This document shows, piece by piece, positions 32,201 to 62,717 of a stretch of 64,000 bases of DNA. This stretch comes from Acanthochlamys bracteata. Lineage: Eukaryota > Streptophyta > Magnoliopsida > Pandanales > Velloziaceae. Where the stretch lies: assembly GCA_019914995.1 (NCBI GenBank), contig CM034136.1, positions 4,045,270 through 4,109,269 of the forward strand, given 5' to 3'. The first letter of the stretch is position 1, and every line of letters begins with the position of its first letter. Below the pieces are notes generated by a model that did no database searches, was not told the DNA's origin, and saw only the letters and a list, made by a program, of their open reading frames with translations. A program made the translations under genes and the position numbers.

Positions 32201-32364
32201 GGTGACCAATCATTTCTTTGAAATTTTGGGCTACTTTTTCACATATGACATTAGGATTTATATGTTTTTTCAGAACAGCACTAAACAAGTTTTTGTAATC
32301 AGTTTTCCTAATCTGTATGTGGTTACAGTCTTTAGTCTTCTTCCAATTGTTAAATGTATGCCCA

Positions 32365-32398
<34 letters not shown>

Positions 32399-35300
32399 GC
32401 GCACGCACGCACACAAATTTTTCTGAATTAAGGAGCTGGTTATCCAGTTTCAGCTTAGTGAATCTTTCTTTTTCTTTTTCTTTTCCCTATTTATTATGTT
32501 TGCACACACTAAGTAAGGTTATCAGATATTTTCTTTTCCAATAACTATTTATATTCCAATTTTAATGCTATCTCTGTAAAACTTTTGTGGTATTAGGTAA
32601 TTAAACTTGGCGCATAAGGTTGTGCAAGAGCGAACGACGCTGTTATTTCATAGTTTGCACACAGTTTATTATAGTTCAGCAATTGGAAGAATATGTCGAG
32701 ATTGTTATGCAACAAGGACTTGCATAAAACTGTGACTCATTGATTATTACTTTGATGTCCTTTGGAAGATTTGTAGTGGAAGAGTATGTGGAATGCTTCT
32801 GCAAATTTTGTTCTTAACATAAGGTTTTTACTGATTTGCTTTTAAGTTGCTGGCTTTAGGTTTATTCCATAATATATGGTAAGATCAAGCACACAATATG
32901 CTTATAGATGCTATATTGGGGAAATCAAAACTTCAGGTCTATTTAAGGGTGTGAATTTTGTTAGTTAGTAAGTAAGCATCACATTTTGTTTACTGGTCTC
33001 CATAGGCAATGGGAGATTCAATAACAGTGTAGTAGGTAGATCCATGAAGAGGGGTCTAGTTAGTGCAAAAACTAAATGTCCCCTCCAAGGTTATTTTGAG
33101 GAAGATGATGATGGCGGATGATCTTGTGAGCCAATACCACTTCATCATCTCTGTCATCATTCACATTGACATGCCACCATGGCTTCTTCCATTGCAAGTA
33201 GATCTCATTGTATAGTATTTACATGCACCGAGTAATGTAGCTCAAACATACTTTTCACAATGTATGGTTTCTGGCCCTCTTCTAAAGACTCCTTGACTTT
33301 TATGTGGCAAATTCTGGAAAACACAAAGGGAGTTATACATTTCATAATCTTAGAGGAGGTTCGAATCCAAAACCATGGTATCTCATGCTTCTACAAAATG
33401 GTTTTGGAGAGATTAATCCTTTAAAGACGGCTACATCATGAATTTCAAATACTGAATGAGAGGAAACCTCCTTCCTGCATTCAAGCATGGCCTTTACTCC
33501 TGTTTACAACTAGAAATAGGTGAAACTTCTCCTTGAATGGGGTGCATCACATGATCCGATGCTTGTCAACATTAATGCGTTCCTTTAGCACAAGGATTTC
33601 CTCCGGTACCTATTTCATAGGTTTTTCTTGTAGTTCCATAGAGCTTTTGAGAGGATCCTATCTGTCAACTAATAGTATATGACTTTGAAGTTACTTGTTA
33701 TTTTGATATCTGTTGCGCTTGTTTTTGAGTTTGTTCCGTCTTACATATGTCTTGGCTATTGCACATAGGTTCCTTGGGGGAATATCGCTTATCTGCTCTG
33801 CCAGTAAATTCTGAGAGGTCTGGTCCTTTATTTTCACCTCCGTATGTTGATCTGAAAGTCAGCTGCCCTTTATTTGATATAGAGTTTGATGAGGTAAGAG
33901 GGGGTTTGTTTTGGTATTAGTTTCTGTTAATTATATAGCTGCCCATGTGTGTGCATTATATTCAGTTGTAACACCATGAATGGCCGGCCTTCTAAGGTTT
34001 AATTTTGTTTTCTAAGGTTTATTTTTGTTGGCATCCAGGCACAACTGAACATCCATGGAAATGTCATCTGCAAGGAAAAGTGTGATCCTTCGCTGTCTAT
34101 TTCACTATTTAAATTAGAGAATGCTCAGCAAATTAAAACAGTCACCTTAAGTCATGAAAGTAGTGAATTTGTATTTACAAAAGTATTTCCTGGAAACTAC
34201 AAGATCGAGGTGTGTTGATTTCCGGAACTCTTGCATCCCACTGATCACTTCCTTTCTTTCATGTTATGTTCATCTCTATGATACCCTTTGAGATATACTT
34301 CGGTTACATATATTAGCATATCTCCTTAATGGTAGCATTGCTTGTTTGTTTTATAGGTTAAACATGAGCCCTTGTCTGGTTCTGGTGAAGACAAGTGGTG
34401 TTGGCATCAGAATGCTGTTGAAATACATGTTGGAACAGAGGACATTAAGGATGTTGTCTTTATCCAGAAAGGCTACTGGGTCCATATAGTTTCCACACAT
34501 GATACAGATGCTTACATTACGCGACCTGACTCTTCACGTGTTGATTTGAGAATAAAGGTCTCTTACTTGATGATAAATATATTCTAAAAGGAATAATCGT
34601 ATTTTAAGTTGAGCATCGCTATTAACTTATCTCTTGATCATGGATTGCAGAAAGGGTCGCAAAGAATTTGCGTAGAGTCTACAAGGCAGCATAAGCTTCA
34701 TTTTGTTAATTCTTGCATTTCTTTTGGTAGTTCATGGGTGAAGTTTGATACAGCAGATCCATCAGTATGTCCTCATCTTTGCACTGGTTTAAAACTGTTA
34801 TGCTGTGAGTATATTATTTACATGTTTGTGTTTTTGCTTTGCAGCCTTTGCAGCTAACAGGCAAGAAGTATCTTCTCAAAGGAGAAATCCAAATTGACTC
34901 AAGTTTGCAGCATGATACATTTGATCTATCGGAACACATCCTTGTTGATGTACTGGACAGAGACCGAAAAATTATTGACTCTGTCCATACAAAACCTCTT
35001 TCAAGTGTCGAAAGTGGCACTGGTGCATATGAATATTCAATCTGGTCTGATCTAGGAGAGGAGACCATCTTTGTTCCCCGTGACTTGAGGTAAGCAGCAT
35101 TAGCCATTCTATATCTAGTTGTAATTTCATGGTGACTTTATGGAGGGTGTGGTATAGTAAATGAGGTTAACCTACTTTACACATGAATCTATCCACTACT
35201 CAAACAAACCGAAAACATGTCAATGCAGTTCCTGACTTCCTGTAGTTCTGGATGTAGGCTTAAGTATATTAGGTTTATAGAGAGACACCAACCTTCTAGT

Positions 35301-38300
35301 CTTTTTGCTAAATAAGTATTGATATATGTCATGTAGAATTCTTCCATTTAGTTTTGTCATATTGGAAGAGAAGTGGCCCCCAATCTCTCTTTACTAAGAC
35401 TGTTACATAGATGAGCGTCAAACAGGATACTGAGTCCAGCTTGGTAGGTGGGCATACTTGATCAAAATGGGCCCCAGAGGATCCATCGAAGATCTGGTTG
35501 TAAGCCATTTACTTAAATTTGAGCTTATTTGATTGGATATCTCCGCATTGTAATGGTTTCTGGCATAATTGACCTGTTTATATGTAGCTCAGGGACGCCT
35601 GTACTCTTTCTTGCTAGTTTTACAATGCATGGAGGACGAAGTTTTGGGTTTCAGGTTCACAAACACGCACACAATTAATGAGAACTTATAGTGGTGGTTA
35701 TGTTGGATGTTTTCATTAACTAAAGGTGTAAATGTAAACAGCAACGTTAAGTATTATCACATAGTGTTTCTCTTTCGGATAATCTTCATGTTGAAATCCA
35801 TTCCATCACAATCTTCCAATTCTTTTTAATCTGCAAATGCTGCTTCCTTCTGCAGCAATAGTGAAGGAAAGAGGATTCTCTTTTACCCGAGAGAGCGCTA
35901 TGTAAGTGTCTAAAAAGCACTTCTCTACCCCTCATGTGCTTCTTTTTAAATTATTTGCTTAATTGGCAGGTGGCTGTTGCGACTGATGGTTGCCAACCAC
36001 CCATTTCCCCTATAGTAGGAAGAATTGGTCTCTACCTTAAAGGATCAGTCTCACCTGCTGTTTCTGGTGTTAGCATAAAAGTCCTAGCTTCTGAAGAAAG
36101 CAGAAATGCTCCTTTAAAGAAAGGAGCGATAGCCTTGGAAACCCAGACTAGACCAGATGGGTCATTTCTTGCAGGACCACTGTATGATGACACAAACTAT
36201 AAGATTGAAGCCTCAAAGGTTTGGACTACTAACCTTGCTTTTAGCTCTTTGCTTGTTAAAAATCAAATGAATTGGATACCTTCATTTTCTTAGTCGCCTA
36301 GGATTCACTTCTTTATCTGCACATGGAAGAAGTCATATAGAAATTCCTCTACTTTATGAATCTTTTCTCATCATTTTCGTACTGTTGGTGCTTATCGAGC
36401 AATTTCTCCCTCTGTACTGTGTTAGTACTTTGGCTCAAACTAGTGTTGTTACTTGCTTGTTTCTGAAAACATCTATCTCAATTTGATTTAGGAATTATTT
36501 GAAGTAGTTTTCCAGTATTAAATGCTTGTCACAAGTGATTTTTCATCCTCTTTGAAATTAACTGAATTAGATGCTAACTTTTCTAAAACATATTATACTT
36601 AGTGCTATCTATTCAAATTACAATTCCACGCAGATTAGAATCCCTTTATTCTTGTATAGTGGTATACTAAGTGAAAGGTGTCTATCTGCTCCTTCAGGAT
36701 ATAAGCATTTGATGTAGTAGGCATAACCGCATAAGTTTGCAGCTCTTGCATGCAAGCTCTACCAGGAATCCAATTTCTTTCATCTTCAAGCTTTTCATGC
36801 AATATGTCTCACACAGGCTATGGTAGTCTGGAGTTATTGAAAGCAATTGTGATTAACTTGGACACAATAGCAATAAGGTTGATCCTTTAGCTCAAGTAGA
36901 AGGTACTAATCATTGTTATAGTTGGTGCTGCCCATTATGTGGAACATATCTTTCAAGGGTATATTGCCATGTAGGATGAGATGCTGGGATTTTGTATGAA
37001 GGTATCTTGATTTGAACAAGGATTAGAATAGTTGGCGCAAAGTTACATAGTTAACAAGAATTTAGAGATGTTGCTATAATAATTTAATTTCTCTTTGTTT
37101 CAAAGATAGCATATCTACACCTTGAGTTTGTATTATGTTTTTGTGTTTGCTATTCATGAAATATCTGTATTTTATCTATAGATGTATCGCATTTTGGACC
37201 AAGTAATATTATGAGCTGACCATTGTCCAATCATATGAGAAACTTCTTTCCTGACTTCGTTTTCCATTCAAAATATTACAGTCAGGTTATCATCTTAAAG
37301 AAGTGAGCCCATATTCATTCACGTGTGAAAAACTTGGCCAAATTCATGTACATATAAAAGAAGAAGGACAAGATGATATGCACTTTCCTCCAGTTCTTTT
37401 GTCATTAAGTGGTGATGATGGGTACAGGAACAACACAATCAGTACTTCCGGTGAAAGTTTCGTCTTTGATAACTTGTTTCCTGGGAGTTTCTATCTACGC
37501 CCGCTGCTAAAGGTATCATAACTTTTGCAATGCATCTCTTGTTTCACTTTTCTGAGTAAAATATACTTCGGTTGTAAATGTGCATATGAAGTATGGGTAG
37601 GGTTTTTCATAAGAAAATAGTGGTATTTACATTACATGGTATATAATAGATCCTTTATTGTAAGTCATGCTCTGATGCTCATTAGTTTAAATTATCATGA
37701 ATTGCACGTCGTTGGGATGAGATGGGAGGGTGGGCCAAATGTGCATATGAAGTATGGCTACGGTTTCTTATAGCAAAATAGTGGTATTTACAATGCAGGG
37801 TATATAATACATTGTTTATTGTATGTGTTATGCATTAAAAGGCCCCCTTTATCATTGTGGTGGCATCCTTCTTGATCTCATGGTTGCAGTCATGAACATC
37901 TGATTTACCAATGTTGAATTCTGTAAGATTAGAAAATATATCAATATATGCAGAAAATAAGTGTGATGGAAATGTGGACGTTATGATCAATTGAGTTTGA
38001 TATACAATCAAGAGCAAGATTAGAAAGGAAATAACAGAGATAGAGTTGGTGTGAGCGAATGTAAGCGAATATAGAGGTGGTTTGACCATGTAAAACGAAT
38101 GCTTAGAAATGTGCCACTTCGAAATGTGAATTTATAGAAGCTACTTTTATTAAGACGGGTAGCAAAAGCTGAAGACTTGGTCAGAGACTTCAAAATACGA
38201 TCTATTTAGCGTCTGATCGAGGATATTGTCTACAAAAGAGCACAATAGTATGAAAGGATCTATGTAGCTCACTCCAGCTAATGGGATCAGACTTAGCTGT

Positions 38301-39962
38301 TGTGTCATTGTAGTTGTTGTGTTGAAACACCATACTCTATTTATGTAGTCTTTTGTCGGTGTGGCATTTCCATATCTCTATATTTGCATGGCCACCCTTT
38401 GCGTTTTGTTTCGTTGTTTGTATACAGCACTCCCTTGAACATCAAGCAAATTTCATGACTTAATTGTGTGAAATCTTTCCATTGTTCAGGAGTACTCCTT
38501 TTCCCCTGCATCATTGGCGATAGAATTGACTTCTGGTGAATCAAAAAGTGTTGTCTTCCATGCTACTCGTGTCGCTTACAGGTTTGTTCAGTTTACCTTT
38601 GGTTGTGCTACTAACATTGAATATATTCACTTCACCAGCTCAATGGGTAAGAACAACAAATACCATGAAATTTTGTGCTTGTTAGGAAAGTCCAAATCCT
38701 GAAGCTTTCTTGAATTTATGCTTTTATATAATTGTACATTATTAGGGGTTATATCTGCTTATAAATGAGAACCGCATTCAAGTTTCATTATGAACTAAAA
38801 ATAACTGCAAAAGGGAATGTTTTATCCTTCTGTTAATCCTTCCATCAGTCTCTTTAAAGTAAATTGCCCAGCATGTAGACTACTAGCAAGCATACATATA
38901 TAAAGAGCCCCTACTTCCATCTGATGAGCTCATTAACCTACTGTTCTAGTATACCTCCACCACATTCAACTAAACTATGTATTTGTAACTTGAGTCGGTT
39001 TCATTTGGCTCTCCTGCTACTTAGTGCCATATTCCCTAGTACTGGTGAACAAAACATTGCTTCTTTTAGTTGTATGAATAATAGTATCTGCCTACAGAAC
39101 TAAGTGAAAGGGAAATGTCCTGTCTAACATAAATTTATTGCAGCGCCTTGGGCACTGTGTCTCTGTTAAGTGGTCAGCCAAAGGAAGGAGTTCATGTTGA
39201 AGCACGTTCTGAATCCAAGGGCTATTATGAAGAAGCAACCACTGATAATCTGGGCAACTTTCGACTTAGGGGACTTTTACCTAAGACGAAGTATGTGATA
39301 AAAGTAGCTTCAAAGAAAGACCTGGGAGTGGATACTATTGAAAGGGCATCTCCTGAATTCATTGTCATAGAGGTAATCTTCTTTAGCAAATCTTCTAGCT
39401 AATCTGAAGTTGTGAAAATATTTACAGGCTACAACCCAATACTGGTGAAGGACTATTTATTAATTGAATGATTCGCCTGGAAGTAGTTTTAGTTTGGACC
39501 TATGAAATGGGCTCCTAGCGAATAGCACTTGGAAATGACAATGCTATCATCTTAGGTGTAAACACTTTTCTGCTAGATGAATTTTTTTTAATTTAGTTAG
39601 CAAATTTATTTTCCTAGTCTTCATATTCTCTCTTTTTAGCAAAATCAAATCACAAATGCACAGACAAAGAATTTTCTGAAGGGAACGGAAGAATGATACT
39701 GTTTAGGACATTGATGACAGATTATTTATTTGAAAATCGTTTGACATTCAATTATTTAATGTAGGCTCTAAAAACATAAAACTCTAAACTCTGTTCTATT
39801 TCTTAACTTGATTAAGAGAAGATTAAACATTGTAGGGTCTTGCTTTTCAAGTCCATATGCTTATGTTGCTAACTGGATCTATATTTGGTATTTCATTTAT
39901 TCATCATGTTTGTTGCAAACAACTTGGCTGGCTCTGTTGTTGTCAGACACCATTTTCCTTTG

Positions 39963-40003
<41 letters not shown>

Positions 40004-41333
40004 ACCTGCAGCACAATTCTTTCCTTGGTTTCCACTTTCTCAATCAACATTGTTTACTGCTTAACAGGGAGAATGTTCTGCATCTCCAGTTACAAGGCCG
40101 ATTTTTTATAACCATAGAATCATATTATTTATTTATCTAGAAAAGCAATTGTATTGTTTATGTTTTGAGATTCCTTGAAGTTCGACCGTGATTATGGCTG
40201 GTGGCATTTCCTAAGTATAGCTGTGAGCAGGTTGGAATTGAGGATATCAAAGGCATCGATTTCGTGGTATTTGAACAGCCAGAAATGACCATTCTAAGCG
40301 GTCATGTTGAAGGAACCGACCTCGAAAACATACATGGACATCTATCCATAGAAGTCAAACCAGCAAAAGATCCGTCCAAGATTGAGTCTGTGTTTCCTCT
40401 CCCATTGTCACGCTATTTTGAAATACGTGATCTACCAAAGGGAAGGCATCTTGTGCAGCTTCGTCTAGACCTCCCTTCAAGTAGTTATAGTTTTGAATCT
40501 GAGATTCTTGAAGTTGACTTGGTAAAGCAACCCCAAGTTCATGTAGGCCCTCTCAAGTATAAGTTAGACAAATATCATCACAAGCAGGTACATCCCGCTT
40601 CCTATTTTGTTGACTCCTTTATTTTGAAAACATTCTACCAAGGACATTTTATGAAAGAAGTTGAAGTATAGCAAAAATAGTGAATCTGAATATAAACGAT
40701 GCTAGAAGTTAATGCCTTTTGCAGTTGTTTCTGTAAATTATGTGTCATGATCGAAAGCACTAGATACTTCCATAGATGCTCCACATCAATAGAAGTAAGG
40801 ATCCTCCATTAGTAGGTCTGATTGCACCATAGACGCTTGACATTGATGAAAATAAGGTTCCTTCATAAGTAGGTCTAAAGTTCAATTCTATTCGTGTGGG
40901 ATTAGTCTTGATGACAAGTTCCTGAGATTAAAATATGGGCAAATGAAAATTCTTCTATTTCTAAATAGCATGCTGTTTGCCTATGTCGCTGGTTTTGTTC
41001 GTCTAAATTTATGGTGGTTCTCCGTTTGCAGGAACCTACACCTGCACCAGTTTTTCCTCTTATTATTGGAGTGTCTGTTATTGCTCTCTTTATCAGTATG
41101 CCAAGGTGTGTCTGGTAACGTAAATAAAGATGCTAAAAAAATCAAGGCCTTAGCGTGTTAGTCAATGAGTCTGTTTTAATCTCAGGTTGCAGGATATGTA
41201 TAGAACAGCTGTAGCAGCAGCTGCTTCAAGCAAGGTTTTAAGGAAAAGAGAGGCCGAGGCAAATTCATTACTGCTTCAATCAACTAGTAAGAGAGGGGAA
41301 GCGCGCAAACAGGTTTTAAGAAAGCGAGCTTAA
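23269..41333 (+). CDS. NOMO: NOMO-like (nodal modulator) ER membrane protein, ~1,205 residues
   Basis: Twenty-seven exons: 23269-23367, 23459-23524, 24389-24475, 24714-24770, 24898-24962, 25046-25215, 27321-27379, 27465-27548, 27966-28125, 29163-29278, 30070-30198, 31605-31676, 31818-31910, 31997-32074, 33769-33893, 34039-34209, 34357-34557, 34651-34764, 34845-35089, 35856-35901, 35970-36218, 37282-37512, 38490-38581, 39144-39372, 40231-40587, 41032-41105 and 41186-41333. The ATG at 23269 opens a signal peptide (LVAISLLIVVSATSITA), then HGCGGFIEASPALIKA. The lumenal part is a chain of carnitine-regulon/carboxypeptidase-regulatory-like beta-sandwich repeats (DGSFLAGPLYDDTNYKIEAS, NLFPGSFYLRPLLKEYSF, GNFRLRGLLPKTKYVIKV). 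A single helix follows near residues 1137-1157 (FPLIIGVSVIALFIS), then a short Lys/Arg-rich cytosolic tail. NOMO works with TMEM147/nicalin at the ER translocon. Length matches plant homologues. Exon 15 appears one base short. Identity is very secure. Confidence 0.95.
26377..26553. mobile_element. Small MITE-like element in NOMO intron 6
   Basis: The ends GTTTGGCGTTGC and GCAACCCCAGAC are imperfect inverted repeats (10 of 12), and ATAGT flanks the insert on both sides (26372-26376 and 26554-26558). The interior has an AAGATAAGCTCG/AAATAAGCTC word resembling the AT-rich family. At about 177 bp it is non-coding. Ends and family are tentative. Confidence 0.45.
28088..28465 (+). repeat. Tandem duplication of the 3' end of NOMO exon 9 plus intron start
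   Basis: A unit of about 183 bp holds the last ~38 bases of exon 9, its donor and the start of intron 9 (28088-28270). It is followed by a second diverged copy (28271-28453) and the beginning of a third (to about 28465). The second copy keeps a GTGGTAAG donor-like word at 28306-28313. Only the first copy is joined to a full exon. Confidence 0.8.
32368..32396 (+). repeat. (AC)n microsatellite in NOMO intron 14
   Basis: An uninterrupted CA/AC run of about 29 bases is followed by GC-containing CACGCACG-type alternation to about 32415. The surrounding 1.7-kb intron (32075-33768) has no other recognised feature. Confidence 0.95.
37975..38325 (+). mobile_element. LINE 3' remnant (RTE-like) in NOMO intron 22
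   Basis: A readable stretch from 38075 gives RWFDHVKRMLRNVPLRNV, close to the (L)RWFGHVKRM.R.APLR motif near the C-terminus of plant LINE reverse transcriptase proteins. It is followed about 150 bases later by CTATGTAGCTCACTCCAGCT-like and ATGGGATCAGACTTAGCTGT words and a TTG-rich tail (GTTGTTGTGTTG, ending 38324), the usual 3' tail of such elements. Frames are interrupted and the 5' part is missing, so it is an inactive 5'-truncated copy in the same orientation as the host gene. Confidence 0.6.
39967..39998 (+). repeat. (TC)n microsatellite in NOMO intron 24
   Basis: An uninterrupted CT run of about 31 bases lies inside the 858-base intron 39373-40230. It is a plain microsatellite. Confidence 0.95.
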
Positions 41334-42957: not shown

Positions 42958-43217
42958 GGGAACGTTTGAGAATACTTATGAAATAGAGCTTTTCTAAGAT
43001 AGAAAGTATTTTTGTCTTTTTTGAAAAACGAGCTTTATTTTTTTACTTCTAAAAAAATAATAAAAATATGCAATAAAAAATCTCATTCTGTAAAATTTTT
43101 CTACACTTTCTAAATTTTTAAATAAAATTTTTATATACTTATAAAATATATATTGAAAAACGTAAAATAGAGAAAAATTAAAAAGCAACGTTTGATAAGC
43201 TCTACCTACAAACACAC
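42958..43217 (+). mobile_element. AT-rich MITE-like repeat, well-preserved copy
   Basis: This copy runs from GGGAACGTTTGAGAATACTT to GATAAGCTCTACCTACAAAC. The outer ends pair as imperfect inverted repeats (AACGTTTGAGAATACTTATG against a GTTTGTAGGTAGAGCTTATC-like complement). It carries AAAAAATCTCATTCTGTA and the TTTTTCTACACTTTCTAAAT core. Confidence 0.65.
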
Positions 43218-43518
43218 CGGCATATTTTTTCAATCACCAGCTGCAGTCGGTGGAATGTCTCGTGCTATTTTGGAAGGATAAAGACTCTTTCGGTCTTTTC
43301 TTCAATAGGTTACCTTGGCCCAATTGACGTTGGCGCTTCATGTCATGAGAGTCATGGGTATCAATATCTTTTTAAGCCTTTGGAAGTTCGACAAAAACAT
43401 AATATAACAAGCAAAACCAGCTGGTTCAATTGATGCAATATTCTCCGATTTAAAAGAAAGTTACTAAAATAATTGTGTTGAATCTTTATCGAGTAAAGAG
43501 TTGTTTCCAAACTAGATG

Positions 43519-43590
43519 TGCGTTTGCCGTGAGTCGAACTCGGGTCTATTGCTTGGAGGGCAATTATCCTAACCGTTGGACTACAAACGC
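43519..43590 (-). tRNA. tRNA-Gly (anticodon UCC), possibly decaying
   Basis: The minus strand reads GCGTTTGTAGTCCAACGG, continues through an anticodon stem-loop ATTGC-CCTCCAA-GCAAT (anticodon TCC) and a T-arm CCGAG-TTCGACT-CACGG, and ends CAAACGCA. The acceptor stem has seven intact pairs and the D-arm and A-box (TAGTCCAACGG) are standard. The T-stem has an A-A mismatch, and the B-box reads AGTTCGACTCA where GGTTCGANNCC is usual. No intron is present. A T-rich terminator was not clearly found just downstream. It could be a functional gene of weak expression or an early pseudogene. Confidence 0.82.
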
Positions 43591-44209
43591 GGGTAAAAAT
43601 GAATTCTAATTTGGTGGTAGGTGAGACCGAGTGATTATTAAAATATATGAAGTAAAAGGCAAAGTATAATTTTAGTGAAATAAAAAAATTGAAAGTGTTA
43701 ATTAAAATATTTGAATTAGCTAAATTTAAAATTTGAAAAGAGAATGTGAAGTTATAAAAATTGAAATATACTTTGATCTATTGTTTTGTTGGAGTTGAAT
43801 GCATATGAACTAAAGTAAGCTAACTCAATTCACCAATATTTGGCAAGTATAAGTAAAGATGAATGAGGGGTACGCCTTGACCCTCATTCATCCCACACCA
43901 GGGTGAAATGTCCGTGTTTAACTGGGTAAACTTGAAATTTTTTAAAAAGATTTAAAATTAAAATTAAAATTAAAATTAAAATTATTTAATAAAATAAAAT
44001 TTTATATTAATAGTAAATTTTAAAATTAAAAAAAGTTTTTTAATTAATTTTATATGTATTTTATATTTAAAATAAATTTAAATAAAGTAAATTTAAAATG
44101 TTAGTGAAGACAGTCTAACCGTCGATACGGGGAGGGGGGGAGGTACAGAAGGTGAAGGTAAATCGTTAGATTTTTTTCCTCTCCTATTTTACCCTTCCCT
44201 TGTTACTAA
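43591..44209. other. Spacer upstream of the chimeric pseudogene
   Basis: AT-rich sequence with an (AAAATT)n-like stretch near 43955-43985 and a G-rich patch at 44130-44145. Nothing coding is seen. Confidence 0.6.
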
Positions 44210-44515
44210 TGATTACTCTATTTTCTCTATTTCTTCTTCTTCTTCGTTCGTCCAAACTCGCCTTCTCCGCTCTGCTCCCGAGTCACAATCCCGTCGCCGA
44301 TGATTGATGTCGTGTTTCATTGTTCCTCGGCTGGGTGATCTCTCTCTCTCTCTCTCTCTAACGGCGGCTAAGATGATTATCTCTGTTCGTTGCTTCATAT
44401 GCGGCAAGGTACCTTCAATTATTCCATCTATGTTTGCTGCAGGCGGACGCTCATGACATATGTGGACTTGATCGAGAAGCTTCTCAACTACAACAGTAAG
44501 AACGATTCGCAGTAA
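44210..44515 (+). pseudogene. RPB10: Internally deleted RPB10 (RNA polymerase I/II/III subunit 10) fragment
   Basis: A pyrimidine-rich leader (44210-44372, with a CT run at 44339-44358) is followed by an ATG at 44373. That reads MIISVRCFICGK, the N-terminus of the small zinc-binding subunit shared by RNA polymerases (usually MIIPVRCFTCGK). After 26 unrelated-looking bases it resumes at 44435 with CCRRTLMTYVDLIEKLLNYN and a stop at 44513-44515. The family normally has about 31 residues between CGK and YCCRR, so roughly 93 coding bases are gone and the two parts are out of frame. Both metal-binding Cys pairs remain as separate pieces, but no functional protein can result. The end lies about 20 bases from the phytochrome fragment. 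Confidence 0.83.
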
Positions 44516-44529
44516 GAATGATGCTAAAA

Positions 44530-47500
44530 TTCTTTGCAACCCTTCTCCGCGAATGATTCTGTTTCCACTTCGCTATGCTTGTGAGTTTCTCATGCAGGCA
44601 TTTGGACTTCAATTATAACATGGAGCTTCAGCTAGCTTCGCAGTTGAATGAGAAACATATTCTCCGTACACAGACGTTTCTCTGTGATATGCTTCCTGTG
44701 ATGTTCCGATGGGCATTGCTACATAGAGCCCTAGCATCATGGACCTTGTCAAGTTTGATGGCGCGACACTTTACTTCCAGGGAAACTGCTAACGTCTTGG
44801 GGTTTCGCCAACTGCGACCCAAATAAAGGATATTGTAGCATGGTCATCTGCCTGCAATCCAGACTCAACTGGCCTTAGCACTGACAGTTTGGCTGATGCA
44901 GGGTATCCTGGTGCTGCTGCTCTCGGTGATGCTGTTTGTGACATTGCTCCTAATGGCTTCCTTTTCTGGTTCCGGTAATTCACTGCCAAGGAGATTAAAT
45001 GGGGTGTTGAGAAGCATTACCCTGCGGACAAGGATGACGAGCAGAGGATGCACCCCCGATCATCATTCAAGGCGTTCCTTGAGGTCGTGAAGAGCCAAAG
45101 GTTGCCATGGGAGAATGCGGAGATGGATGGTATATACTCATTGCAACTAATTGCCGGAATTTCCTTCAGGGAGGCTGCTGAAGGGGCAAATAATTCAAAG
45201 GCATTGGCTAATAGTTGGGCCAGTCAGAGACTTGGAGTTGCAGGGAATAGATGACCTCAGCTTGGTTGCAAGGGAGATGGTGAGGTTGATTGGGACGGCA
45301 ATTGCACCCATCTTTGAAGTTGATTCAGAAGGAAAGGTGAATGGGTGGATCGCAAAAGTTGCAGAGACCAGGCTTTCCATTGAGGATCCTATGGGCAAGT
45401 CACTTGTTCATGATCTGGTCTTTCCAGAGTATGCAGATAAAGTTGACAAGCTTCTCTGTTGAGCATTGAAAGGTACCATGGCTTTCCACGATTTCCTCTC
45501 TTTGTATTTTTTATGTTGATGGTGGCAATATTTTCCATATGCCTCAGTAACCACCAAACTACTCTCTACATGTTCTTACTAAACGCAAGGCCTTGGTGAT
45601 TGATTCTTGAAATTGAAATGACTCTACTGTTTGCATGCTGTTTCTCATAGAATTCAGATTTGCAGGTGAGGAAGATAAGAATGTGGAGATGAAGCTGAAA
45701 CATTTTGGCGAACAAACTAAAGATGCAATCTTTTGTCATAGTAAATGCTTGTTCTAGTAGGGATTACACCAACAAAATAGTCGGCAACTGCTTTGTAGGC
45801 CAGGATGTGACAGGGCAGAAGGTGGTAATGGATAAGTTCATCAACATACGGGATTACAAGCGATTGTGCATAGCCTAACTCTTTCATTCCCCCTATATTT
45901 GCTTCAGATGAGACTTGCAGCTCAGAATGAAACACAGCAATGGAGAAACTTACTGGTTAGTCAAGAGGAGAGATAAGGAAACATCTTGTGGGATAAGTTT
46001 TTGGTAGTGGCTGCAAGATCAAGGGTCCAGATGCTATAACAAAGTTCATGATTCTTCTTCACAATGCAATTGCTGGGCAAGAGACTGACAAATTTCCAAT
46101 TGCATTCTTTGACAAGAATGCAAAATACGTTCAGACTCTTTTACAGCTAATACACAGAGTTGTATGGAGGGACAGATAATTGGTGCATTTTGTTTCTTGC
46201 AAATCGCTAGTCCAGAACTGCAGCAAGCTCTTGAAATCCAGCGACAGCAGGAGAGAAAATGCTATGCAAGAATGAAAGAATTGGCGTACATTAGTCAGGA
46301 AATTAAAAACCCACTCAGTGGCATACAGTTCACTAACTCACTTTTGGAGAGACAGCATTAAGTGATGATCAGAAACTGTTTCTTGAAACATGTGCTTCTT
46401 GTGAGAAGCAGATGATGGAGATTGTTAAGGATGCTAATTTGGGAAACATTGAGGATGGGTAATCTACATTTTCCCTATAACGTTTTTCTGGATTAAGCTC
46501 ATCTCATGTGATGTTATTTCGAAATTTTCATTGCTATTCCAGGCCCACAATGGTAAGGGTTGAACCTGGCAACCTGGATTTCAGGTTTGAGTAACAAAAC
46601 ATATATTGAATAGTTAGAAATATGCAAGAAAGTGCCCTGGGATCTTGGAGTTCAACACAATATCTTTTTTCTTCTTTATTATTGCTAGTCGAGGATTCAT
46701 GCACATAAACAGTCTATTCCAGGCCCACAATCTTAAGGGTTGAGCCTGGCAACCCGCATTTCAGGTTTGATTAACAAAAACATATGCTGAATAGTTAAAA
46801 ATATGCATGAACAAAGTGCCCTGTGATCTTGGTGTTCGATCAATATCCTTATTCTTCATTTCTATTGCTAGTCAAGGATTCATGCACATAAACAGTCAAC
46901 TGTGTGCTTGGTTTCATCATATTCTTGAACTACATATTCTCCCTTTTTGGTTTCGCTGCGCTTACTTGGTTGGCCTGTCAAAAGTCCTTCATTTACCTAC
47001 CGCTTTTACTTATGTTTTATGTGTTGATCAACATTTAAAGTAACATGATCTGTATTTTATTAAACTAAAGTTGCTTTTTCAAGATTGGTTTCTATAGAAG
47101 TGCATGTTTTTGTGACCCATATCCAATTGCTTTTAGTGAGATTGACTTGTATTATCATGGGAGCTTTCCTTGAAAGTTGTTTGAAAACTTTGAATGCACA
47201 TCTGAATTAGAAGCTCTATATTTCGCACAATCACAGTCTGTTTCCTTCTTTTTGCAGCTCTTTTTGGTGCTTGACAAAGCTGAATTCCTGCTTGAAAATC
47301 TGATAAATGCTGTTGTCAGCCAAGTGATGATTCTTTTAAGAGAAAGAGGATTTCAATTGATTAGATACATTCCAGAGGAAATCAAAACCTTGGCTATCAT
47401 TGGAGATCAAGTTAGAATTCAACAAGTATTAGCCGATTATTGGCTGAATAGGGTGCTATATGCACCAACTCCTGAAGGATGGGTGGAGGTCCAAGTCGGA

Positions 47501-48145
47501 CCAAACTTAAAGCAAACTTCTGATGGAACAGAACTGATACTCCTTCACTTCAGGTATGTCAGGCCTAGTGTCTCGTAGTAACGTAAACTGGCTGATTTGT
47601 CTGAGTATCCTTAGAGGTAGGAATTCTCCTAGATAACAACTGAACCATTAAGGTTATGTCTTTTATATTTATTTGACAAAAATTTTAACCTTTATCTAAC
47701 AGGACATAAAGAAGACCATCGTATTACTCGAGCTATATCTTGACCGGTTGATTTTCCCTTCTTGTTCATTGACGTTACTTTGATGCCTCCATCTGTTGGG
47801 AGACTGTTGCACAAGGTGCTAGACACCTTGAAAATTCATGTCAATTATATGAATGTAAAACTGCTGATACACTTTTTTCATCGTGTTTCTCGCTGAGGAC
47901 CACGGAAAGACGGATAGAACTCTAGGAAAGATTTTAGGTGTGTAGTGTCGATATATTTTTAATGGCATATTTTGTTTTTATGTGTTTCACCTTTTTTGGG
48001 CTCCACTGCAATGTGTAATAGTTTCTACCACAGGATTGTATGTCCTGGTGATGCACTTCCACCTGAACTTGGTCAAGATATGTTTCACAACTCGCGACGG
48101 GCAACAGAAGAAGGTTTAAGTCTAAGCATATGTAGGACGATTTTG
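44530..48145 (+). pseudogene. PHYB: Phytochrome B fragment, 5'-truncated, intron-bearing pseudogene
   Basis: Coding similarity starts within the GAF domain ([17 protein letters not shown]) and runs to SICRTIL in the C-terminal kinase-like domain. Exon-like blocks are 44536-45472, 45666-46458, 47258-47553 and 48034-48145, at the usual PHYB junctions, with introns retained. Diagnostic pieces include [88 protein letters not shown] and LRERGFQLIRYIPEEIK. The chromophore-binding Cys and everything N-terminal to it are absent, and the last ~30 residues are missing. Many frameshifts and stops interrupt blocks 1 and 2 (for example an extra T after GLQL at about 44613, a TAA in the FLFWFR region, and loss of the segment after KFINIRDYK); block 3 is open throughout. 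Intron 2 contains a 180-bp tandem duplication. The intact parent is not in the window. Confidence 0.93.
46534..46898 (+). repeat. 180-bp tandem duplication inside the phytochrome pseudogene intron
   Basis: Copies 46534-46713 and 46714-46898 both begin CTATTCCAGGCCCACAAT and end ATGCACATAAACAGTC. They share ATTTCAGGTTTGA and AAATATGCA words, with about 10 percent differences by eye. The duplication lies between phytochrome exon-like blocks 2 and 3. Confidence 0.88.
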
Positions 48146-51100
48146 TCTGACTTGCTTCCTGATTTCCACTGCACTTGGGGCACCACAAGCTGATAATAGT
48201 TGAGGCACTCAGATAAGCTCTTTTGATGTCCGCCTTTGTCAGCAAATGGGCAATCAACCAATGCTCGGAACTTCACTCGAGGCATCGGATTGATGAGCAT
48301 TGCTGGAAAGCTGAGATGATTGCAATAATTTTAAGTTTTGCACAGGTTACTGTTGTATGTAGAATTGGGTTTATGCGTATCTATAACTTAATCCAATCTA
48401 ACTTCTGTCAAGATACTCCACTGAGTATCCAAAATTTGAGCAACGCAAATGCATAGCCTGATCATCAAGCTTCCTGGGCCATATTAGATGAAGATTTTGT
48501 AATCATCTATATCTAAACCTGTTAGTAAATAACACGTTAATGTTTAACTGCTGTATCCAAATTAAGCATCAATAGCTTATGAGAACTCTGACAGATGTAT
48601 CCAGTAAGATGGTAGATGTTCCCTGATGCGTGCACCTATTTCTTGCTAGAAATATCTCCTGCCTGGTTTGAGGTATGAAATATTCGTTCTAATTTAGCAG
48701 ACAATTTGATGTGTGGGTTACTAAATTTATTCATTATGTGGTAAGGTTGTCCACTATAGATACTACTTCATGCTTTTAAGGGTAGATTGCCCTCTTTTTA
48801 GTTATTGCTTGCTTTTGTTTTACTGAAATAATATTTGTTGCTTGCTCATCTATTCATGCTTTTAAGGGTACATTTGCCCTTCATCATTGTTGGAGCTCTT
48901 CTGTTTCCCTGGCTTCCACTATTGATTGAAGGTCTGGATTAGCTTTCTACTTAGATTTTTTATTTTTATTTTTAAAGCTTCATGAATTATCAAAGTTCTG
49001 CATGTTATCAAAATTATGTACTTTGTCGTGATATTTAGTTTTAGATTAATCTCTTGTAGGTTTATGAGCCCAAGTAGCTTTATTCTTTTTTGTTCAATGT
49101 ATATCGATACATTCACGAATCACCTTTGCTTTGTTCTTACTTCTCTGCAGGTGAGGTCTTGAAGAAAGTTTAATTTAATTTCATAGAGGTTGTCTTGGAA
49201 CGTTTCTGAACTTGCTGTAACACCTGGTGCTTAGTAGAGCGATAGCCAAGGGAAAAGGGAGAATTCTCAGGTTTGGTACCTGGGTCATTCATAACTTCCT
49301 AAGCAGTTCAGTACCTAGGAGGTAAGTACAATTCTCTACAAATTTTGCCTCTGCATCAAACGAGTCAGGTATGTGATTTTTGTACAGTTTTTTATTCCCT
49401 TTCACCATCATCTTCTCCGGTAGTGGTTGCTCCCTGATTATCCTTAGATGAAAACATGGCCCACTGTTTGCTTCCAAGCAAATCAACACCGGAAAGGATA
49501 AGGTAAACATGGAATGTTGATAGTCTGGTGATGAATTGCTTTGGCAGACAAGTGAATTTATCTTATCATTCTACTCTTCTTCGCTTTTTATCACCGTAGC
49601 GTAAATTTTTTAAAAAAAAATGTCTAAACAAGTAAATTATATATATGAATATAACAATTTTATGAAATACAATTGATTTATGTTTTTTAAGAGTTAAAAG
49701 AAAGTTTAAAATACTATAGAAAATTTTATAAAATACAGAAATTTAAAAGAAGATAAAAATGGAAAGAAAACGTGTAGCCAAACATCTCCTTTTATTTACT
49801 GTCGGATTCCAAAATGAAAAGCGAATACTGATTACTGAATGTGTCCCTGAAGTAAAGCCCTGAAAGGTGATAGTGACATTTGAGTCAGTTGAACGGCTTT
49901 GCTTAAAAGTTTTACAATTTATGTGGCCCAATTTCTTGGCGACTTGTTCACTCATGAAAATTACAATTTTCTTACGTTTACTTTATTTAATATTTTAAAA
50001 TTTTTTGGCCTTTGGAAAAGCATTTTTCAAAAAATTTATTTTTTATATTTTTTATTTTATATATTTTTTATAAATATTTAGAAAAATATAAAAATTTTAC
50101 ATAATAAAAAAATTTTATTACTTATTTTTATTATTTTTAAAATTACAAAAATAAAATTCATTTTAAAAAAATCAAAATATTATTTATTTTAAAAAAATTT
50201 ATTTCCAAAAAATTTATGAACGTCTTAGAAAATTATGCATACTATTGTTTCTGATTCAACCAGAAAAATAGTTCTTTTTGTTGACAATTGAATATTTAAA
50301 TTGAGTATCCATACTTGACATTGTAGCATTTCTTGTCGAAGAATTTGGGTTCTCAAATTTTTTCTCAATATTTTGTTTCTTAAAAAAATTTTGATATTAT
50401 TTCAAAAAAATTTAAAATTTTTTAAAATAATTTATGTTAAAATATTTATTTGTACTTCAATTATTTTTAAGTTCAAAAAATAACTTTGATTCTCATAAAG
50501 CTAAATAAATAGCTTTTTAGAAAAATATGTTATTTTAATAATCTCAACGACACCTCTTTCTTGGTTAAGAAATTTTTTTAAAAATTAGTACATCTAAATT
50601 TTATCTCTAAATCAGCAGTATAGTCGGTGGGTTTTGCTGAATGTAATAGACATTCCATTCCAGAAGCACTACTAAACAAGAGCAAAATAGGTAGAATCAT
50701 AAACTAATATTAAAGTCATGTTTGAGGAAGTTTTTTTTTTTTTTTTTTATGTTTTTTAATAAAACTTTAATATTTTATAGAATTTAAAAAAAATTTAAAA
50801 ATAAAAAATTTACATCATAAAGTTTATTATATTTATTTACGTAGAAAATTTTATTATTATTTATTATCAGTATTTTAGATAAAATTAAATTTATTTTTTA
50901 ATAAAATTAAAATATTTTTTATAAATAATTTCAGACGTTCCCAAGGTTATAGTTAGAAGGCAGTGCTAAGAAACATTCTTGCATTATGATTTAATAAAAA
51001 AAAGGTACATGATTGATGAAAGCGTTTTACACCTGTGCTGCTTCCCACTTTGAAAACTACCGTCTCAAGCATGTGCAAGTGTGCAACAAGAAGAAGCTCC

Positions 51101-51901: not shown

Positions 51902-54900
51902 ATGGAGCAAAGTGGAGAGCTGCTGAAGAAAATCGAGGAGCTTGAATTGGGCCAAGCTCGATTACGAGCAGAGATGTCCAAGCTTGCGGCGTCGGCGAGG
52001 GAAGTCGGTGTGACACGTGGACGATCGAGATCCGTTTCGCCGCAGCAGAGGGTAGCAAGGCAGATGTTGCGGCGTGGTGAGGTCCGGCAAGCTTCAAGAT
52101 TGAGTAGACAAGGAGGCGCTGGGGGCGGCAGCGGTGAGATGGTGGGGATAGGATTGTCGGAGCGCATGTGTTTGAATATACTTCAGTCGTTGGGGCACTC
52201 TGTTCATATATTTGACCTCGATTGCAGGATTTTCTATTGGTGAGAAATTTTTGTAGCTGATATGTGTTTTTCGAAATGTTGATTGTTTTTTATTGATGCT
52301 TTTTTAACTAGCTTTTGATGATTCAGGAGCTTGAGTAGTGGTTTGGTTTGTTGTGCTGTGTTTGCTCTAGGTCTCTGGTTTATCTTATGTTTCTCCTCTT
52401 CATTTTGGGTTGTGATTTCTTAGTTCCTCCATACACTTCTGTCTATTGATTTGTCGAGGTAGTGTTTTAATCACTGAAAAAATTGTAAATTTTGATCCGC
52501 AAACTTAGCAGCGAGGCTTGTGTTAGTTCTTACAGTAAAATGCATTTGTGTTTTTCCAGTGCCATTACCCTCTGAGATTGTATTAGATTTTGTCTAGCAT
52601 TCTCTTGAAGGATTGAGTAAGTTCTTGATAAATTGTTGCAAGTCTTATGTGGTTTTTGGGACTTGGTTGCTTTGTCTTTTAGCTACAAGTTTAGATTAGA
52701 TTCTGAAAATTTAAGAAACGGTCCTGTTTTCTTCAAATGGAGTTGCTTGCATGACTATTATGTGCCATGATAGTATGTAATTATGAAGTAATGTGGATCT
52801 CCATTTAAGGATTGAGGTAATTTTTTTAGGGAAGTAAGAATACAAGATGAGTGAGAAAAGCAAAGCTGAAGGCTTTCCTGATTATATTGACTGCTTTAGT
52901 TCGACGCCCTAAAACTGACGCATGTTGGAGGATAGCAATCTTAGACGACCCTTGTATATGAACTGATTGTTGTTCAGGTTCGGGATCACTATTCTTTTCA
53001 ATATTTGGTAGACACTTCAAGAAGTACCATGATTTCCCTTTAAACTTTTCTTTCTCTTTTATTTAACTAGTTGTTTTGCATGTGCACGCGAATCATAAAT
53101 GATTCAGTTATAAATTTATAATTGCTCAACATTATTTAAAATTTTTTTTTCCAGTTGCATAAGTTAATAGTCACTTTTGTATCAATGTCAATATAATAAA
53201 TAGAAATTAATACACATTAAAACTTCTAAGTAAATAAATACTTTTGTAAATTTTTTTTCCAAAAGTTATTATAAGTGTTCTTGTTTGCACTTCATTAAAA
53301 TTTTCTCATTTATATTCCAGAGAAGAGTTGTTTTTATTGGAAATGGAAATTACATCTATCTAATATAAGAAACTAAACTATTTAGCTAAAGGCAAAATCA
53401 GCAATCACAAAAAATCCGACCGATGCTCATCTCCGGCTTTAATATTGTATAGATATATTCCAAAGAAGATTTGTTTTTAATTAAAATTGAACCATAAATT
53501 TATTTGATATTAAAAACTAAGGATTTAGCTAATCAATGGCAAAACTGGCGATCAAAAATTTCAGCCCATACTCTTCCCTGACTTTTATATGGTATAGATT
53601 ATCCATGAGTAGCACACATTTGTGGTACTTAATGATTTCTTCTTGTGCTTAAATTGTGCACGAGTCACGTACATGGTGAACTTTGAGGCTTGAACATATT
53701 TAATAGATCTTTGGACACCCCATCGTTATGGAGTATATGTCATTGTCAACTTGAGTTTGTATTCTGAGCAAATAGTTTTAATTCTTTGTTCTTGTAAGTC
53801 AAAATTTGCATGTTATGTCATTGTGGTTATGTTGTTCTTCTGAAATGTCTGCAAAAGATGCTTACTTGGCTTATACTTCCAACACAGGAATCGCACTGCA
53901 GAACATCTTTATGGCTATTCTGCATCAGAAGCCCTTGGTCAAGATGCTATTGAACTACTCGTCGATGCTCACGACTTCAATGTGGCTAGTAGTATTGTCC
54001 ATCGTTTGACTAGGGGAGAGAGCTGGACAGGGAAGTTTCCTGTCAAGAAAAAACACGGGGAACGGTTTATAGCTATTGTTACCAACACTCCCTTCTATGA
54101 TGATGATGGGACTCTAGTTGGTATTATTTGTGTGTCAAGTGACTCACGGTTCTTTCAGGAACCAGCTTTTGCTCCAAGTCTTACAAAGACCCCAACAATT
54201 GGAGACACTGGTCATAATAAAAGGAGGATTGAGTTCAGTAAAGCAAGTCATGACTCTCAGCAACCTCTCCCAGTTGCTATCGCTTCCAAAATTACCAACC
54301 TGGTAGGTGGCCAATCAGAGAAATTGATACATGATATGCAATGGATTTGTTCATGTCAATCAAGGCACTTTTACTAACGTTGACTAGATGTTACCTAAAT
54401 TATGTCTTCCACTTCATACCATATTCTTTTTTATTTATAGAATCACCTAAACAGGCTACTAAAGTGACCAACAAAGTTCGTTCACGAATAAAAGCTGGTG
54501 AAAACTTGGGTGAATGTGATCCTCGAAATGGAGCTCGTCAGCCTTTGGGTAATGGAAATATGGACACTATATCTTCAGAAGGCATTCAATCAGCAAGTGT
54601 TGAATCTTCTGTTGTCAGTGTTGAAGAGAAATCTCCTGTCAAAGTGGCTGAACATCATAGTGATGAAATGGATAAAAAGTCAGGTATGCAAAATATGATA
54701 AGTTCCAAAGTAGAAGCTTGAATTGCAAAAAAGAGGATGCCGTGGTGGGAATTGCAAATGAATTATTGATGCAAAGAATTGTTTACATGCTGATCAATAT
54801 ATTGATGCAGGTCCTCCAAAATCTTCAGAATTGAATCTAAAACAAGAAAGACAAATTATTGAGAAAAACCACACGTCAAGCAATGATACTTCTGGATCTT

Positions 54901-57900
54901 GGTCATCAGCAAATGCTGGTAGCACGGGTAGCGTTAGTAGTGGTGGTAGCACCAACAGCACTGCCATACACAAAATTGATATGGAAAATGACAGTTTTGA
55001 CACTGAAATAGTATGGGAAGATTTGACAATTGGTGAACACATAGGTCAAGGTATTGATACCACTTTTTAACTAGTTGTATAATATCTGGTTTTCTTACTG
55101 GTTCTATGATCATCATTTTGATGATAACGAAAGTACTAGCTACTTGCTTGTCAGTTGATCTGCCTCGTCATGTGGCTTGGTTTGGAATTATGCAAAAAAT
55201 GTTTAGACTTAGACTGTCCATTGCTTGGTACTTTTGCCCATTTTTTTTTCTTTTTTGTTTTCATCTGATATAGTATGTAATGTAGACGATGGAGTGGTTT
55301 TCTTGATGTACTATAGTTTTTTCCTCATTGTATCAATATACTGTTCCCTAAAAGTTCTTAACACCCTTTTAAGTTGTTTTTCTGATTGCTAGTAGCAAAT
55401 GCAACTATGTTTCTTTTTTAAAAAATGGGCTGTCTGATAGAACCAAAGTAATTGTATCTTTTTATCATTTAACATGCCACTGACTATAGGATCTTGTTTA
55501 TGTTTTGCAACTATGGACCATGTTTTTTGATCAAAAGTTCTGGATGTCTTATTGCTTGGATATTCTTTAATGGTTTTGCAGGATCTTGTGGAGCTGTTTA
55601 CCATGCTTTGTGGTATGGTTCGGTAAGTTTCTTAACATTTTCTTCTACCTATAGTAGTCGTGATAGTAATAGTAGTTAAAGGCATTTTACTTGAGCTGTA
55701 ACATATTATGCTGCTCGAGATTTACATGATGTTACTTCCAAATCTTCTCAGCTTCAATGGCTAGACATGGGTAATTGAAACTAGGTCTGGGGATGACTCT
55801 GAAAAAATAAAACAGACACAAGCTTGGACTTGATGTAGATATTTTAGGATTGTTTGGTTTTGCATAAAGGAATGTGTTCCCTCATCAAAGTAGATTGGCT
55901 CAATGAATAAAGACAACGTTAGAAATCATTTTCTACCTTAATTTGGTGATGTAACTATGAGTCAAATGTACTTCTTTGAAGAACTCGGTAATGTAAGCTG
56001 TAGTTTATCGAAGTAGTCTTTGATGTTCACCTAAAATTTTATCTGCCGAGATAGATTAAAGAAACTGGAATTTCTTGAATTTGCATGTTTTGCTTCATAA
56101 AAGAATTTCAGCAAAAATTACTAGTTAACTTACCTACTTGCAGTGACTAATGCTAATGTGAATAGTTGGATTGGACATGAATTCCTCCAAGCAATTTATT
56201 CCAAAATACATCTGAATGAGGTTAAAATCCTGGAAACGGAGTATTGGCTAATAAGAAGTATCTTTATTAGCATCTCCAGGTGCGGTTCTTGTCAGACTTT
56301 TATAATCTCAACATTGAAAAGAAGAGAATAACTTATAAACTTCTCTCTGAAAGCACATAAAATTTCTAGTTGAGTAGATTTGAAGCATTATTTGTAGGTT
56401 TTTTATATGTTTGTCTTGGACCTATTTCAATTGTAATTGCTATGTTTCGTTTACCTTAGGACATTCTGGATCTAAGATTTATCCAACGGAAGTACTGCAT
56501 CTTTTACCAGCAAACTAAGACCGTTTTGGTTAGTATCATGTGTAAGCAATTATTTTGTGCAACTGTTAGCTAAACCTGTTGTCGAAGATGAATATTAACT
56601 TCCTATAGTAGCAAGTGCACTACATTGTTTTTTAGGTAAAGCACATCCACTATTTGTGAGACGATATGTCTATCTGTTTCGTGGGTTGGGGAAGGCTCAA
56701 ACCTTGTTTAGATTCTGGGATAGGTATATATGTTTTTCAAAAGACATGCCACTTTATAGCGAGTTACACAAATCTTTAATTGGAAAACAGATAGTGATGG
56801 AAGGCATACATAAGTGGTTCGTATGTTTAGATTTTATGTGAAAGTATGACCTCTCTCATTTCTTGCAGGATGTGGCTGTCAAAGTATTTTCAAGGTTGGA
56901 ATACTCAGATGAAGTGATCCTCTCATTTAAGCAAGAGGTAGTGTGATAGTGTCAAGGGACCCAGTATTAGTTTAGTTGCCAAAATGTGCTCAAGGAGAGA
57001 CTATCCTTCAATATCAAAATTTTCAGTTTTAATTAACAGAAAAATATTAATGAAGATACAGTGTATTAAGTTACTGGTTTAGTCATGCTTATAGTTACAG
57101 GGATTTATATAGCTGAAGAGTAGGGTTCTGCAAGTTCGTTAATCGTCATCGTTTCTGTTAGTATTACTATCTTGTACATTATTTGGAGCTTTCTAATATA
57201 GGTTTTCTTCTGAAGGTATCACTTATGAAGAGGCTGAGGCATCCAAATATACTTCTTTTCATGGGTGCAGTTACTTCTCCCGAGCATCTTTGCATTGTTA
57301 CCGAGTTCCTTCCTCGGTAAACATTTCTTATCTTTCTGGGAACTTGTTGGAGAGCATCTTTTGTGTATGATAAATCTTGCATGTAATGTTGAAGTTCTTG
57401 GATTAACTTTTTTCAGTGACTGACATTTACTTATATAGAAATCAGTTATTGCTCTATTTTTCATTCTAATTACTTTCTGGATCTGTTTTTAGGGGGAGTT
57501 TGTTTCGATTGCTGCAAAGAAAGCCGACCAAGATAGATTGGAGAAGGCGCATTCACATGGCTTTAGATATAGTGAGTGTATTCAGAATCTGTATATCTTC
57601 ATATGTTTTTGTAGTCTTTTTTTAAAAAACTTAATTTTTATTTTATATTTTATATCCTGGTTCTCTTTTTTTTTAAAAGAAGGATGTTACTGTGATCACT
57701 CAGTAAATGTAGTTGCATTATTTGTCACTTGCATGAATGCATCATGAGCATGGGTATATAGAAAGCTGAACTTAAGTCAGTCATAAAATTAAGTGCTTAT
57801 CACTCCCAAAAAGCTCCTATTCAACTCCAAAAAAATTATGTATAAGTTTTTAGATTTTTTTTAAAACAAAATGGAAGATATGGATGAATTGTAGGTTATG

Positions 57901-61928: not shown

Positions 61929-62717
61929 ATGGGGACAAGGGTGATGAAGTTAGTGGCATTGCTTGGGCTTCTTGCCTTGACACTGATGGGCGATATTGCC
62001 GAGTCTCGTTGGCTTCAGAAGGAAAACTTCGGTGGTGGTGCAGGCTTTGGTGGAGGAGCTGGCGGTGGACTTGGCCATGGTGGTGGTCTAGGTGGCGGCG
62101 GAGGTCTTGGTGGTGGTCTTGGCCATGGAGGCGGTCTCGGTGGTGGTGCTGGCCTCGGCGGAGGAGCTGGTGCTGGCGGAGGACTCGGAGGCGGAGCTGG
62201 CCTTGGTGGTGGAGCTGGTGGTGGTCTTGGCCATGGCGGTGGTCTCGGTGGTGGTGCAGGCCTCGGCGGCGGAGCTGGTGGTGGACTCGGAGGCGGAGCT
62301 GGCCTTGGTGGTGGAGCTGGAGGTGGACTCGGGGGCGGCGGTGGCCTTGGTGGTGGAGCTGGAGGTGGACTCGGAGGCGGCGCTGGGGCTGGCGGTGGTC
62401 TCGGCGGTGGAGCTGGTGGAGGTGCAGGCCTTGGTGGTGGTGCTGGTGGAGGACTTGGCGGTCTAGGAGGTGGAGGTGGAGCTGGCGGTGGTGCAGGCCT
62501 TGGTGGTGGATTTGGAGGCGGCAAAGGCGGGGGAATTGGTTTCGGTAGCGGAGGAGCAGGCGGAGGGTTCGGCGGCGGTGGTGGTGGAGGAGCAGGTGGT
62601 GGGTTTGGTGGTGGCAGTGGGTTCGGAGGTGGAGCAGGAGGAGGATTTGGAGCAGCTGGTGGTGCTGGAGGCGGTGCAGGTGGAGGCTTTGGCGGCGGCG
62701 GTGGTGGCGGATTCTAA
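61929..62717 (+). CDS. Glycine-rich cell-wall-type structural protein, 262 residues
   Basis: A single intronless frame starts at the ATG at 61929 (context CAATGG) and stops with TAA at 62715-62717. Residues 1 to about 26 form a signal peptide (hydrophobic VALLGLLALTLMG, then a likely cut near AESRW). After SRWLQKENF the protein is almost entirely glycine with interspersed Leu, Ala, Phe and some His: N-terminal GGGLGHGGG and GGGAGLGGG repeats grade into GGGFGGG-type repeats at the C-terminus, which ends GGF. This is the class I plant glycine-rich protein plan, secreted and deposited in the wall. There is no RNA-binding or Cys-rich domain. A second Met at position 6 could also serve as start. 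The DNA repeat is built on GGTGGT/GGAGCTGG units, prone to length change. Confidence 0.92.
   Translation: MGTRVMKLVALLGLLALTLMGDIAESRWLQKENFGGGAGFGGGAGGGLGHGGGLGGGGGLGGGLGHGGGLGGGAGLGGGAGAGGGLGGGAGLGGGAGGGLGHGGGLGGGAGLGGGAGGGLGGGAGLGGGAGGGLGGGGGLGGGAGGGLGGGAGAGGGLGGGAGGGAGLGGGAGGGLGGLGGGGGAGGGAGLGGGFGGGKGGGIGFGSGGAGGGFGGGGGGGAGGGFGGGSGFGGGAGGGFGAAGGAGGGAGGGFGGGGGGGF
62038..62714 (+). repeat. GGN-rich internal coding repeat of the glycine-rich protein
   Basis: This is imperfect tandem DNA repetition of GGTGGTGGA/GGCGGAGCTGG-type units encoding Gly-rich motifs. It is strongly purine- and G-rich on the plus strand in contrast to the AT-rich surroundings. Runs such as GGTGGTGGTGGAGG could fold as G-quadruplexes; this is inference. 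Confidence 0.85.

Follow-up and report, generated by a model that had tools for sequence, protein, structure and literature searches.

A decayed phytochrome B duplicate with a broken, probably dispersed copy of RPB10 alongside it in Acanthochlamys bracteata

In fractionated genes of maize, 10 of 16 deletions are flanked by direct repeats of 3–24 bp, and the gaps span 5–178 bp (Woodhouse et al. 2010, PMC2893956). The locus analysed here resembles those maize genes in that one duplicate is intact and the other partly deleted in place, and in the short direct repeat at one deletion join. Unlike in maize, the deletions inferred here would amount to ~1 kb or more, and a copy of an unrelated gene, RPB10, lies at one break. 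This copy is like a dispersed (transposed) duplicate in having a leader and the start of an intron, in being missing from the partner block and in having a sister copy on contig C4, and is unlike one in being truncated in the middle and on the 3' side. Pack-TYPE transposons carry gene fragments (PLoS Genet 2022, PMC8903248), and an element with terminal inverted repeats (TIR) in this genome carries RPB10 exon 3 (C2, C5 at 2.8 Mb, and C12). Such ends were, however, not seen at the piece studied here, whose exon 3 is nearest to that of C5 and not of the C3 type. Literature searches found nothing on a PHYB pseudogene or on a pseudogene combining RPB10 and phytochrome, and, judging by titles, no paper on phytochrome B pseudogenes with whole-genome duplication and fractionation concerned this case.

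The window, i.e. the whole stretch of 64,000 nucleotides analysed, is C11:4045270–4109269, and the genome searched comprised 195.5 Mb in 557 contigs. On the + strand of the window, an RPB10-like 3'UTR reaches to ~44538, and similarity to PHYB runs from 44539 (BLAST), or from 44544 when counted from codon 392 of the C8 gene, to 48684; hence the two homologies touch. The initial annotation had an RPB10 end at 44515 followed within about 20–30 bases by phytochrome in the same orientation, and the contact proved even tighter than stated. A local duplication of ~16 bp, read by eye, precedes the 3'UTR-like tail. The point near codon 392 at which PHYB begins presumably lies in the GAF domain. These homologies are far beyond chance.

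Three of the seven frames on the phytochrome side have Pfam hits, to PHY (6.7e-15), PAS (3e-5) and HisKA (1.1e-6), which, together with PDB phyB chains as the top matches for 45151–45462 (4.1e-21) and 47174–47578 (7.6e-25), confirm phytochrome B identity. Two of the remaining four frames had no Pfam hit, one had a weak hit to HATPase_c (0.18) and one a weak hit to an unrelated family (0.08). Compared with the PHYB gene on C8, in which the frames covering the four exons are all open, the remnant on the + strand comprises exon 1 from codon ~391 (44539–45469; 87.1% identity, four stops, seven indels), exon 2 (45671–46459; 89.8%, three stops, ten indels), exon 3 (47264–47554; 88.0%, neither stops nor indels), exon 4 (48035–48200; 79.5%, deletions of 36 bp and 5 bp) and an alignable 3' flank (48201–48684). 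All three introns are alignable to C8, and their retention had thus been recognised correctly. The remnant of intron 2 contains a tandem duplication of ~180 bp (46534–46897, +), both units of which, 46534–46713 and 46714–46897, match one stretch of C8.

The aligned PHYB coding pieces carry seven stops and 19 indels as disabling changes relative to the C8 gene, and the promoter and first ~391 codons are absent from the C11 copy. With these losses, PHYB in the window is evidently dead as a protein gene. Searches for the missing 5' part gave only chance-level matches elsewhere in the window and, in the genome, C8 and a single 68% match of ~206 bp at C4:92365; a relocated 5' half was therefore rejected. 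Five places in the genome have a PHY domain, and internal stops occur solely in that of the window.

Between the window and C8 copies of PHYB, dS is 0.308 and dN 0.088 (ratio 0.29). When amino-acid changes were polarised on PDB phyB over 451 codons, covering exon 2 and 204 residues of exon 1, 35 were specific to the window, 12 were specific to C8 and 20 fell in neither class, besides six stops. The window-specific excess and the ratio of 0.29 fit a PHYB copy that probably stayed under some constraint for a time and was then released and lost.

The window is collinear, in inverted orientation, with C8:4089–4152 kb, the shared features being a kelch gene, a NOMO-like gene, a tRNA-Gly match, PHYB and a PAS-domain gene. 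In the comparison with C8:4078000–4152000, in which matches above 60 bits were counted, the ordered matches at window positions 3705–4178, 7840–15843, 23252–29919, 40228–41194, 43515–43590, 44539–48684, 52521–61462 and 62030–62714 (the last glycine-rich and repetitive) correspond to C8:4151945–4089182. Matches that depart from this order occur at several places each and are presumably dispersed repeats. One gene lies at 3705–4178, the kelch gene at ~8.4–11.7 kb of the window, the NOMO-like gene at ~23–41 kb and the PAS-domain gene from ~52.5 kb; these names come from a domain search of ten frames, three of which, the glycine-rich one included, had no hit. That glycine-rich frame, at 61776–62714, is long, has GGGAGGGLGG-like repeats and is without a Pfam match. 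The tRNA-Gly (TCC) at 43515–43590 on the − strand (43518–43590 by ARAGORN) is a 95% match to C8:4117592–4117667, a stretch that precedes the ATG of C8 PHYB (4117320) by 271 bp.

This collinearity indicates that PHYB in the window sits in its original place and is the duplicate partner of C8 PHYB. Its introns were kept because it never moved. Flanking gene order, open frames in the partner and disabling changes are all those of a duplicate pseudogene in place. The removal of introns that marks a processed copy was not found, as introns remain in PHYB, and RPB10 still has a promoter and the first part of intron 1. The ~64-kb block shared by C8 and C11 stems from an ancient duplication, which would most simply have been one of the whole genome. 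On C11 the NOMO-like gene is long, but on C8 the matching ends are only ~60 and ~130 bp apart (window 24245–29315 and 29919–40228); NOMO-domain frames at 27966–28253 and 34809–35090 lie inside these stretches missing from C8, so that the loss is on the C8 block.

RPB10, for its part, appears to be the gene that is out of place in the window, as it is absent at the C8 site, where the 271-bp spacer has no RPB10 match. Its promoter and leader (43766–44372, +) match only the C4 copy of RPB10 elsewhere in the genome. A piece of dispersed repeat (43700–43774) stands between the tRNA and this promoter, with matches at 15 other places from query base 1 to at most base 75 (78–89%), and the promoter itself contains an AT-rich, MITE-like element with inverted repeats (43930–44118; arms 43929–43979 and 44044–44094, 71% complementary). 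A genome search with the promoter, in which the best 40 of 637 candidates were scored, was dominated by the MITE-like repeat (64 of 66 matches within query bases 316–530), so the leader was searched again without it; 44142–44384 then gave one other genome match, C4, at 76%. The upstream arm, 43766–43915, scored 107 on C4 against a best of 58 among 98 stretches from other loci (query 43760–43940). With the query extended to 43700 the scores were 133 and 82, and with extension to 43591 they were 133 and 126, the latter at an unrelated locus, because the widest query takes in more of the dispersed repeat. Conversely, a search with 1 kb of DNA upstream of the C4 copy returned, for the best 40 of 111 candidates, the window leader and another dispersed repeat. 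Derivation of the leader from the PHYB promoter was rejected, since the C8 spacer matches window 43591–44370 no better than shuffled sequences do (22 of 300 reach its score).

Exon 1 comprises 13 codons and, with the first part of intron 1, occupies 44373–44433 on the + strand (ATG at 44373; MIISVRCFICGKV). The sequence TTGCT follows at 44434–44438, exactly where two matches to C3 overlap, and the rest of the exon 3 piece with the 3'UTR-like tail extends over 44439–44538, with an in-frame stop at 44513–44515. The C-terminal part of the last exon, 44434–44515, reads CCRRTLMTYVDLIEKLLNYNSKNDSQ and then the stop, and is 96% identical to C5 over 44434–44506. The copy thus has a leader and lacks its middle, as described in the initial annotation: exon 1 and the C-terminal piece of exon 3 are present, and exon 2 and early exon 3 are missing. 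The extent given there fell short on both sides, RPB10 being alignable from ~43766 and PHYB continuing to 48684, beyond 48145.

Elsewhere in the genome, RPB10 has intact coding pieces on C3 and C5, is decaying on C4 and is present as exon 3 fragments at C2, C5:2.8 Mb and C12. The proposal that this pseudogene joins two otherwise unlinked genes is borne out, PHYB being on C8 and RPB10 on C3, C5 and C4. The C3 and C5 copies share a 461-bp downstream stretch at their own sites. The C4 copy shares the gene body of C5 and not its flanks: over ~26 kb compared, matches above 55 bits cover the gene body only, and C4 and C5 were rejected as syntenic partners. Hence the C4 and window copies appear to be dispersed duplicates that have their own leader, and some transfer of RPB10 at the DNA level must have occurred. 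In the C4 copy (6510.3–6517.2 kb, L013), exon 1 to exon 3 span 6.6 kb versus 1.65 kb in C5, which suggests an insertion in an intron.

The missing middle of RPB10, from intron 1 to the middle of exon 3, corresponds to ~1.65 kb in C5 and 1.78 kb in C3, and TTGCT is common to both sides of the break. Random joins within C5 RPB10 share at least 5 bp in 0.7% of 20,000 trials. At the second join, between the RPB10 3'UTR and PHYB codon ~391, clear or convincing microhomology was not seen; fill-in repair is possible there. Deletion or patchwork repair, the latter offered earlier as one origin of the joins, is their likely cause.

Capture of RPB10 and PHYB fragments by a Pack-MULE or Helitron and their joint insertion, the other origin proposed, would account for retained introns, unlinked parents and a fragmentary RPB10. 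A TIR element did take another RPB10 fragment in this genome: copies of 2.5–3.5 kb at L014:3206–5722 (C2), L015:3265–5801 (C5:2.8 Mb) and L016:2827–6359 (C12) carry ~0.55 kb of C3-type RPB10 sequence, from exon 3 and the 3' flank, and end near GGRCATGTTTGGCT and AGCCAAACATGYCC. We take this element to be a PIF/Harbinger; 3-bp TWA-like duplications were seen by eye in two of the three copies, and C15 and C9 have only the RPB10 3'-flank part of the cargo. Such Pack-TYPE-like capture is therefore real in A. bracteata, yet it does not explain the locus in the window. Decisive for PHYB is the collinearity with C8 of the gene itself, its 3' flank, the upstream tRNA and the flanking genes on either side, a position contradicting transposon capture of PHYB. 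The tRNA, RPB10 and PHYB are indeed enclosed by inverted repeats, as in a composite element (42962–43178 and 50022–50223; score 165, at most 92 in 200 shuffles); these repeats also rank, with weak arms, among the 25 longest of 83 inverted pairs. Nevertheless, they belong to a dispersed AT-rich repeat that matches C8 at many places, and near copies of the first lie on C3 (89%) and C8 (86%). Given these matches, the collinearity of PHYB and the position of the copies outside the collinear tRNA, they are taken as separate insertions, incidental to RPB10 and PHYB; the search for TIRs recommended at the outset thus found repeats around the region, and the collinearity argues against their having delivered it. 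Credible Helitron ends, also suggested as a check, are absent at the piece: within 43500–50500, CTRR with a stem of at least 6 occurs at 48663 (+), 49624 (+) and 46372 (−), and none is at the junction, a result that is weak for RPB10 alone, whose right end is lost. No second copy of the chimera was present among the genome matches, and joint capture is regarded as highly improbable. RPB10 and PHYB were not found adjacent elsewhere in the genome, the arrangement named in the initial annotation as evidence for simple segmental duplication; a duplicate still at its original site had not been among the explanations weighed there.

Two other explanations concern RPB10 only. In one, the gene would already have been present between tRNA-Gly and PHYB when the block was duplicated and would later have been lost cleanly from C8. 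In its favour, the leader is about as diverged from C4 as the blocks are from each other: K2P distances to C4 are 0.20 for the leader and 0.30 for the upstream arm, and PHYB noncoding sequence differs between the blocks by 0.15–0.27. This dating leaves the order of RPB10 arrival and block duplication unfixed. An ancestral position is nonetheless unlikely in view of the 271-bp C8 spacer without an RPB10 match and of the downstream stretch shared by C3 and C5, with their intact coding pieces, at their own sites. Alternatively, a C4-like leader with exon 1 and a C5-like exon 3 could be separate filler from repair of a double-strand break in PHYB, since exon 3 in the window has 3 differences from C5 in 73 positions, as against 10 from C4 in 71, and the leader matches C4 only. 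The pieces keep the order and orientation of the gene, however, and the decaying C4 copy has 9 differences from C5 in 71 positions, which fits fast change on C4, so that one full-length copy with the TTGCT deletion explains both pieces; filler is considered improbable to the same degree. That the assembly falsely joined unrelated contigs can practically be dismissed, as both sides of the join belong to the same collinear block and follow its order, and the pieces are long diverged.

Decay of PHYB in place with a non-collinear piece of RPB10 beside it is thus held with high confidence. The block duplication would have given the C11 and C8 copies, PHYB on C11 being the partner of that on C8. A dispersed duplicate of RPB10 with its own leader would then have arrived between tRNA-Gly and PHYB and lost its middle by a deletion using the 5-bp TTGCT microhomology. 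At least one further deletion would have removed everything between the RPB10 3'UTR and PHYB codon ~391, so that illegitimate recombination, by which plant duplicates are commonly lost, would have produced the apparent chimera. For RPB10, this history of late dispersed arrival followed by deletions is judged fairly likely. A putative transcript from the RPB10 leader would be sense through the PHYB remnant, because both pieces are on the + strand, and the antisense-capable transcript envisaged earlier is not expected. The remnant shares 20 exact runs of at least 21 nt with C8 PHYB (540 nt in total, the longest 37), and it is scarcely credible that the putative transcript would feed small RNAs or act as a decoy tuning C8 PHYB.

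The whole feature is a decayed PHYB duplicate with a broken dispersed RPB10 copy alongside, of a kind that plant genome evolution ordinarily produces. What looks like a captured chimera can therefore arise without capture, when a copy of an unrelated gene beside a decaying duplicate is fused to it by deletions, and aligning the locus with its partner block in the same genome decides between capture and decay in place. For the NOMO-like gene beside PHYB, the loss is on the opposite block, that of C8. The findings suggest that C8 has the sole working copy of this PHYB pair in A. bracteata, the other places with a PHY domain being on C10, C13 and C15.
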